This document shows positions 39,734 to 41,765 of a stretch of DNA of 59,229 bases, piece by piece. The DNA lies in assembly GCA_029268085.1 (NCBI GenBank), contig JAJUHD010000002.1:1-59229 (forward strand), written 5' to 3'. How positions within the stretch are numbered: the stretch's first letter is position 1; each line of letters begins with the position of its first letter. A program made the translations under genes and the position numbers. The DNA is from Bacillota bacterium. Its GTDB lineage: Bacteria > Bacillota > Clostridia > Oscillospirales > Oscillospiraceae. The notes under the pieces are model-generated. The model had not been told where the DNA came from. It saw nothing but the letters and a program-made list of their open reading frames with translations, and searched no databases.

Positions 39734-40036
39734 TCAACAGCGTACATTCATTGGTACGCCGTAGGTAGAAAATCTGACCGGCTGGCTGGTATCAAAATTG
39801 TCTATGGCTTTGATAAGCCCGATACAACCGACCTGAAAAAGATCGTCCACATTTTCGCCTCGGGATGCGAATTTCTGTATGACCGAAAGAACCAGCCGCA
39901 GATTTCCCGAAATTAGCTTTTCTCTTGCCTCTTTGTCGCCCTCCTTTGCGCGGAGCAGAAGCTCCATTGTTTCATCGTTCTTCAGGACCTTGAGTTTCGC
40001 TGTGTTAACACCGCAGATCTCGACCTTGTTCAGCAA
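39734..40036 (-). pseudogene. sigG: Truncated sporulation sigma factor sigma-G
   Basis: A 100-residue open frame that starts with the sigma-G hallmark MLNKVEICGVNT and continues through region 2.1-2.2 (ISGNLRLVLSVIQKF, GENVDDLFQVGCIGL, IDNFDTSQPVRFSTY). Similarity ends at about residue 97 (GVPM). Three unrelated residues and a stop follow. A full sigma-G is about 255-260 residues, so the rest of region 2, region 3 and region 4 are missing. The downstream frames show no continuation. The ribosome site (GGGAGG before a TTG start) is intact. The break lies about 100 nt from tRNA-Arg(CCT). A complete sigG may exist elsewhere in the genome; otherwise the strain could not finish sporulation. Confidence 0.85.
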
Positions 40037-40125
40037 ATGAATTACCTCCCTGACGATGAGTATATGCGCGGGTAATGGTTAGTATTTCCCCGGCAGCGCT
40101 GATTCATTCGGCATATTAAAAATTG

Positions 40126-40159
40126 AATGTAAACCAATAAGAATACGATGGTTGACATT
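40126..40159. promoter_or_regulatory. BirA operator
   Basis: AATGTAAACC (40126-40135), 14 nt, GGTTGACATT (40150-40159): a 9-of-10 inverted repeat matching the TGTAAACC-N14/15-GGTTTACA form of BirA boxes in Firmicutes. The right half contains the -35 box of the birA promoter, so bound BirA should block RNA polymerase. Confidence 0.82.
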
Positions 40160-40180
40160 ATGAAGCTCATAAGGTAGAAT
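40152..40180 (+). promoter_or_regulatory. birA-bioY promoter
   Basis: TTGACA (40152-40157), 17 nt, TAGAAT (40175-40180), 32 nt before the birA ATG. Confidence 0.85.
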
Positions 40181-40211
40181 ATCAAAAACTGATTGGCCGA
40201 GGATTGATGAT

Positions 40212-41189
40212 ATGCCTACAAAAAACGATGTTCTCGCAGTGCTGGAATTTAGCCGCAACCGCTTTGTTTCAGGGCAGGAACTGGCAGAAACGCTTAATAT
40301 CTCCAGAACGGCAGTATGGAAGGCTGTGAAAAGTCTTGAGGAGGACGGTCATAGGATACTTGCCGTTACAAATAAGGGATATAGGCTTGATTCTGACAGC
40401 GACCTTCTGACCGAGGAGGGCGTTCGCGCAAATCTTCCGAATCAATATAAGAACCTCCCGATAACGGTCCTGAGCGTGACCGATTCGACAAATACGCAGG
40501 CTAAAAAACTCGCGGCAGACGCGGCTCCTCACGGTACAATATTGCTCGCGGAGGAGCAGACCGCTGGAAGAGGCAGGTATGGGAAGAGCTTCTTTTCGCC
40601 GCGCGGAGCGGGGCTTTACATGAGCGTCATTCTCAAACTGCATTCCGGTATTGCGGAACCGCAGATGATAACTGTCGCTGCGGCGCTGGCGGTTTGCCGC
40701 GCGATTGAAAAGCTGACTGATCTAAAACCGCTCATCAAGTGGGTAAACGATATTTATCTTGACGGCAAAAAGGTCTGCGGTATTCTGACGGAAGCAGTGA
40801 CGGATTTTGAGAGCGGCGGCATCGAGAGCATAATCGTCGGCGTCGGCGTAGACTGTACAACAAAAGAAGAAACTTTGCCTCCGGAGCTTCATGGCATCGT
40901 TGGCGCGCTCGGCGAGGGCGCTGTTTGCAGGAACCGTCTGGCTGCGGAGATCGCCGCGGGGATATTGGACAGCTTCAATGACCTCGGCGGAAGTGAAATC
41001 ATTGACGGATACAGAGCACGTTCGCTTATGCACGGAAAAGAAATTAGCTTCATGCGCAACGGTGAAATATTCCGCGCAAAAGTCACCGGAATAAGCGATT
41101 CCGGAGCGTTGCTAGTATGTTTGGATAACGGAACGGAATTCGAGCTTCAGAGCGGTGAAGTTACAATCGGAAGCATGGCGGGAAATTAA
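40212..41189 (+). CDS. birA: Bifunctional biotin-protein ligase and biotin repressor
   Basis: A 325-residue BirA. The N-terminal winged helix (about 5-60: SGQELAETLNISRTAVWKAV) binds DNA. The central ligase domain has the biotinyl-AMP motif TAGRGRYGKSFFS and the KWVNDIYLDGKKVCGILTE region. The C-terminal SH3-like domain follows. It attaches biotin to carboxylases; when biotin is plentiful, the BirA-bioAMP dimer represses. A BirA operator overlaps its own promoter, so it is autoregulated together with bioY, 15 nt downstream. Confidence 0.96.
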   Translation: MPTKNDVLAVLEFSRNRFVSGQELAETLNISRTAVWKAVKSLEEDGHRILAVTNKGYRLDSDSDLLTEEGVRANLPNQYKNLPITVLSVTDSTNTQAKKLAADAAPHGTILLAEEQTAGRGRYGKSFFSPRGAGLYMSVILKLHSGIAEPQMITVAAALAVCRAIEKLTDLKPLIKWVNDIYLDGKKVCGILTEAVTDFESGGIESIIVGVGVDCTTKEETLPPELHGIVGALGEGAVCRNRLAAEIAAGILDSFNDLGGSEIIDGYRARSLMHGKEISFMRNGEIFRAKVTGISDSGALLVCLDNGTEFELQSGEVTIGSMAGN

Positions 41190-41204: not shown

Positions 41205-41765
41205 ATGCAAATGAAAAAATCGGATGTGAGGGGAATGGTGCTTTGCGGGTTGTTTGCCGCCCTGATAGCGGCGGGAGCTTTTATGAAAATACCGATCCCA
41301 TACGTTCCGTTCACGCTCCAGTTCCTTTTTACAAATCTCGCGGGGCTGCTGCTCGGGAAGAAAAAGGGACTTATCTCTGTATGCCTCTACATTTTCATAG
41401 GGCTTGCCGGTATTCCTGTGTTCACGCAGGGAGGAGGGCTCGGTTATATTTTTCAGCCGTCCTTCGGCTATATCATCGGCTTCGCTGTGGGAACATGGCT
41501 CGCAGGACTGATTGCGGAGCGCGGAGATACTATTAAGAGTTATATTTTAGCCGGTTTTGCAGACTTTGCCGCAGTTTTCGCGTTCGGTTTGGTATATTTC
41601 TATCTTATCATGAATTTTTATCTTCATAAGCCAATCGGAATATGGAAGACCTTGATGGTCGGCTTTTTCACCTTTGCTCCGGGCGATATTTTGATAGTGA
41701 TAGTCTGTGCCTTCATTGCAAAGAGGCTGTACCCGTTCATTAAAAAAAGCAATGCCGCAGTATAG
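41205..41765 (+). CDS. bioY: Biotin transporter BioY (ECF S component)
   Basis: A 186-residue membrane protein with about six helices. Family stretches: KIPIPYVPFTLQFLF, LAGLLLGKKKGLIS, GLAGIPVFTQGGGLGYIFQPSFGY (core) and FAPGDILIVIVCAFIA. BioY captures biotin and may work with the shared EcfAA'T module. No biotin synthesis gene is in the window, which fits biotin uptake. It shares the BirA-controlled promoter. Confidence 0.95.
   Translation: MQMKKSDVRGMVLCGLFAALIAAGAFMKIPIPYVPFTLQFLFTNLAGLLLGKKKGLISVCLYIFIGLAGIPVFTQGGGLGYIFQPSFGYIIGFAVGTWLAGLIAERGDTIKSYILAGFADFAAVFAFGLVYFYLIMNFYLHKPIGIWKTLMVGFFTFAPGDILIVIVCAFIAKRLYPFIKKSNAAV

Follow-up and report, generated by a model that had tools for sequence, protein, structure and literature searches.

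In Bacillus subtilis, a group II BirA binds its three inverted-repeat operators (bioWAFDBI, yuiG and yhfUTS), two of which lie at BioY genes, only in the presence of biotin and ATP (PMC4016012). Staphylococcus aureus BirA is a biotin-dependent repressor of bioY (PMC6391492), and the Streptococcus suis protein binds the bioY promoter (PMC4877710). Among Proteobacteria, autoregulation of birA has been reported for the Desulfovibrionales only (PMC5343134; see also PMC545781), with the BirA site placed between birA and a biotin-synthesis operon transcribed divergently from it. The BirA box consensus is TTGTAAACC-[N14/15]-GGTTTACAA (Rodionov et al. 2002, Genome Res 12:1507, as quoted in PMC545781).

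The locus described here, in an Oscillospiraceae genome, lies within a 59,229-nucleotide stretch of DNA that was analysed as a whole (the window), and it shares with the published BirA regulon the arm sequence, the N14 spacing, and the link to biotin genes and a group II BirA. As in B. subtilis, a Gram-positive group II BirA goes together with an inverted-repeat site and a BioY target; however, the B. subtilis targets are three and scattered, and birA has not been reported among them (PMC4016012). Control of a BioY transporter by BirA through an inverted repeat in the bioY promoter, predicted in our case, is also what is seen in S. aureus and S. suis, but there the bioY target is separate from birA, whereas here birA comes first in the operon, so that BirA would repress its own gene; in addition, the S. 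suis site covers the transcription start site and the one studied here covers the -35 element. With the Desulfovibrionales the locus has in common a BirA site able to control birA itself (PMC545781, PMC5343134), although the site here is upstream of birA-bioY and no synthesis genes were found. A search of the openly accessible literature returned no report of a birA-bioY operon with its own box.

Domain searches identified birA at 40212..41189 on the forward strand, encoding a 325-aa biotin-protein ligase with the three parts of a group II enzyme: an N-terminal helix-turn-helix (HTH_11, E = 7e-16, residues 5-58), the catalytic domain (BPL_LplA_LipB, 5e-19) and BPL_C (1.7e-6). This bears out the claim, made when the DNA was read without searches, that the protein carries a DNA-binding domain, and residues 5-320, helix-turn-helix included, align to S. 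aureus BirA structures over their full length. Starting 15 bp past the end of birA, bioY (41205..41765, forward strand, 186 aa) encodes the substrate-binding subunit (S component) of an ECF biotin transporter, with a PF02632 match of 132.8 bits against a cut-off of 25 (1.1e-38). Given this spacing, we infer that the two genes are co-transcribed. The whole assembly yielded one BirA and one BioY copy; it gave no bioB match above cut-off and no bioD, and it contains biotin/lipoyl acceptor domains, one of them within a 1164-aa open frame. The missing bioB and bioD suggest a reliance on imported biotin, in an assembly that is 92% complete (91.8%, with 7.8% contamination, reported as 7.84%), so that a bio gene located elsewhere may have been missed.

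Upstream of birA, the inverted repeat AATGTAAACC-N14-GGTTGACATT occupies window positions 40126-40159, with the left arm AATGTAAACC at 40126-40135 and, after a 14-bp spacer, the right arm GGTTGACATT at 40150-40159; both are read directly from the sequence. On re-reading, the letters and coordinates of the box given by the sequence-only reading proved correct, with the qualification that the site proper stops at 40159 and the range to 40180 takes in the -10 element too. Its description of the site as having one mismatch holds against the symmetric form AATGTAAACC/GGTTTACATT but not against the published consensus TTGTAAACC-[N14/15]-GGTTTACAA, from which 3 of 18 positions differ; the inverted repeat that characterizes a BirA box is nonetheless present. 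Such departures, with G for T in the right arm and A/T at either outer end, are common in related and published sites alike, and the right arm is of the TTGACA type here since it doubles as the -35 element. Pattern scans and conservation in relatives support annotating 40126..40159 as a predicted BirA operator, to which no strand is assigned.

At up to three mismatches, the window holds one match and 100 dinucleotide-preserving shuffles of the window hold none. We scanned the entire 2.38-Mb assembly under three pattern definitions, namely TGTNAACC-N13-16-GGTTNACA, the looser TGTNNACC-N13-16-GGTNNACA and the 34-mer with at most three mismatches, and each returned this single match. The box is thus not replicated within the genome; by the letter of the sequence-only reading, which held that no other matching sites would refute it, this would count against the operator. 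The absence of a second site is a poor refutation, though, because with a single BioY, a single BirA and neither bioB nor bioD detected, the genome would have a regulon restricted to transport, for which one site is expected.

The right arm runs into a near-perfect sigma-A promoter, TTGACA-N17-TAGAAT (40152-40180, forward strand), which has 11 of 12 consensus bases and is joint best of the region in promoter scoring. Its -35 element (40152..40157) lies inside the right half-site, as had been proposed, and its -10 element TAGAAT (40175..40180) follows at 17 bp, placing the box in the promoter region of the biotin genes, overlapping the -35 upstream of birA-bioY. A likely ribosome-binding site of birA, GAGGA, reads at 40199..40203 on the same strand, ahead of the birA ATG at 40212.

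The box, a -10 element at 17 bp and the birA-bioY order are all retained at nine further loci from this genus and a neighbouring one (L115-L123); the box starts about 75-95 bp ahead of the birA start, and the N14 spacer varies while the box stays, so the site is conserved at orthologous positions. In a broader sample, made up of 80 birA loci from named genomes together with the relatives' birA loci and limited to HTH-bearing BirA, a box was counted if it had at most two mismatches and lay no more than 200 bp upstream of birA. Where bioY is the next gene downstream in the same direction, birA is preceded by a box in 40 of 48 loci; the count is 11/27 where bioY lies elsewhere in the locus and 1/50 where there is no bioY (Fisher P = 3e-18 for 40/48 vs 1/50, a value that is descriptive and overstates significance since the loci are related). 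BirA-box control of birA-bioY is not universal, because at eight of these 48 loci no box appears even when two mismatches are allowed.

Among the boxes upstream of birA, the right arm contains TTGACA in 37 of 52, the mirrored left arm reads TTGACA in 19 of 52, and in 40 of 52 loci a 17-bp spacing gives the best -10 match. TATAAT matches 16-18 bp downstream average 4.6 of 6 positions, as against 2.8 in shuffles (maximum 3.1). Because the right arm is so often TTGACA and the -10 match stands above the shuffles, the fusion of a half-operator with a -35 element is a conserved design, and it seems general among the sampled birA-bioY loci. The same overlap gives some footing to the view that the palindrome arose by chance or from the promoter, with GGTTGACA merely a strong -35 and the left arm matching by accident, since half of the similarity then has another cause. 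We regard this as very improbable: the left arm is itself conserved throughout the genus and well outside it, with a spacing of 13-15 bp, birA promoters without bioY almost never have the box (1/50), and the shuffles are empty. The conservation already contradicts this view. In a congener (G003), whose birA-bioY itself has a one-mismatch box, a second and more distant bioY (40% identical) has its own strict BirA box (L029, G003:C48:3246-3275).

We also looked for the strict box in 151 genomes from the family, with no gene as a guide. It is present in 29 of them, and in 21 of the 29 it adjoins a BioY gene. Of the 82 genomes in which BirA carries the HTH, 18 have a box beside BioY; of the 52 with an HTH-less enzyme, none does (P = 1e-4, a value that overstates significance since the genomes are related). 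The box thus travels with the DNA-binding form of BirA. At one locus (L018, G039:C25:6975-7003), the box precedes, in place of bioY, an open reading frame with a BioB-like CxxxCxxC sequence, and in that genome the box therefore probably governs biotin synthesis. Seven strict-pattern matches have no adjoining biotin gene (L004, L007, L012, L014, L025, L026 and L028), and these were taken as background: several are inside long open reading frames (L012 in an ftsZ-like gene), and L026 resembles a terminator palindrome.

The region upstream of birA is divergent, and its minus strand bears the N-terminal half of a sigG gene (39734-40036, region 2 only by domain search) preceded by a promoter conserved in the genus, GAATGA-N13-GGGAAATACT (about 40083-40111, minus strand), which we take to be sigma-F-like. 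This promoter lies about 15-45 bp from the box, and one might therefore propose that another regulator uses the site, for instance for the divergent sigG half and not for birA-bioY. Such a role is highly unlikely in our judgement, given that outside the genus the box adjoins bioY or birA-bioY in most relatives and that none of the family genomes with an HTH-less BirA has it next to BioY. We set aside the box as a regulator of the sigG half specifically because it accompanies bioY outside the genus. Across the genus, the short intergenic region therefore holds two divergent promoters of unrelated control, the sigma-F-like one being 15-45 bp from the BirA box.

The sequence itself, its overlap with the promoter, the protein families, and the conservation and co-occurrence data together lead us to conclude with high confidence that 40126-40159 is a predicted BirA operator that overlaps, and would control, the single birA-bioY promoter, with holo-BirA most likely repressing by blocking the -35 element. 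The domains, the genus-wide layout and the association of the box both with bioY-linked birA and with HTH-bearing BirA uphold the original proposal of an operator overlapping the -35 of this operon. A role for BirA as a transcriptional repressor here is suggested by the co-occurrence of box and HTH, and ligand-dependent binding of a dimer with repression by promoter occlusion would follow from known BirA biology. When biotin is sufficient, BirA would make biotinyl-5'-AMP, and with the biotin acceptor proteins saturated, dimers of holo-BirA would fill both half-sites and cover the -35. A bound dimer would be expected to exclude RNA polymerase, and both the BioY transporter and BirA itself would then be repressed. 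When biotin is scarce, the adenylate would be consumed, BirA would leave the DNA, and uptake and ligation capacity would rise together, which would amount to the closed feedback loop on biotin uptake that had been proposed from the sequence.

A refinement of this reading would give birA or bioY a second, unregulated promoter, leaving the transcript only partly under biotin control. An essential ligase is not usually switched off altogether, and weak promoter-like matches do occur inside birA (at 40759 and 40807); yet these reach 9-10 of 12 positions, near the shuffled background, and there is no other good promoter between the box and birA. We think a second promoter rather unlikely. With the single BirA-controlled promoter as the preferred reading, the site is a sound and ordinary case of a long-known control circuit, here with predicted birA autoregulation, and it allows regulation to be annotated firmly in a clostridial lineage that has been little studied and apparently relies on imported biotin. 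The survey points to autoregulation as the rule for birA genes that lie in one operon with bioY. More broadly, we lean towards the view that in Clostridia birA is self-controlled selectively when it shares an operon with bioY, and that the right arm is kept as GGTTGACA because it acts at once as -35 and as half-operator, which makes for a compact, fused operator-promoter suited to transport-dependent biotin economies.

The split sigG beside birA may matter more than the operator. SigG is the late forespore sigma factor, and the truncated open reading frame could have been a sequencing frameshift, an explanation that we rejected, as at least nine genomes share the break. A search with a SigG model located the C-terminal half, with sigma regions 3 and 4, on another contig (L201, G000:C22:14635-15123, minus strand). 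Across 30 relatives, the same model detected an N-half, covering about residues 1-96 to 114 of the 254, apart from a C-half of about residues 91-254 in most genomes of the genus, and never on one contig with it. Directly ahead of the C-half on C22 is a large serine recombinase (Resolvase, Recombinase and Zn_ribbon_recom domains), which is 70-85% identical across the genus and stands beside the C-half at each C-half locus of the genus where it was found. Both halves have a short core in common at the break, CC[A/G]ATGA in most pairs, at which they would join in frame as FSTYGVP-M-IAGEIRRYL, and the C-half has no evident ribosome-binding site ahead of it. By analogy, this looks like a programmed rearrangement of the sigK/skin type, but of sigG; a sigma factor working in two pieces is the rival explanation. 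Our literature search found no report of an interrupted sigG, the one text match (PMC8102284) concerning a disruption mutant.

Contig C42 of the assembly carries a full-length SigG (L202, G000:C42:6352-7110) whose identity to the halves is only 84% (N) and 71% (C), while the congeners' halves are 92-95% (N) and 85-95% (C) identical to them; because its SigG is much less similar than those of the congeners, C42 is probably contamination. Outside the genus, sigG is split at the same codon region in G004 (L203 and L211), from a second genus, and in G160 (L204 and L212), from another family of the order. In G004 only a distant recombinase (33%) stands beside the C-half, and none occurs in the flank of the G160 C-half that was examined, which suggests that these two splits are independent or decayed events.
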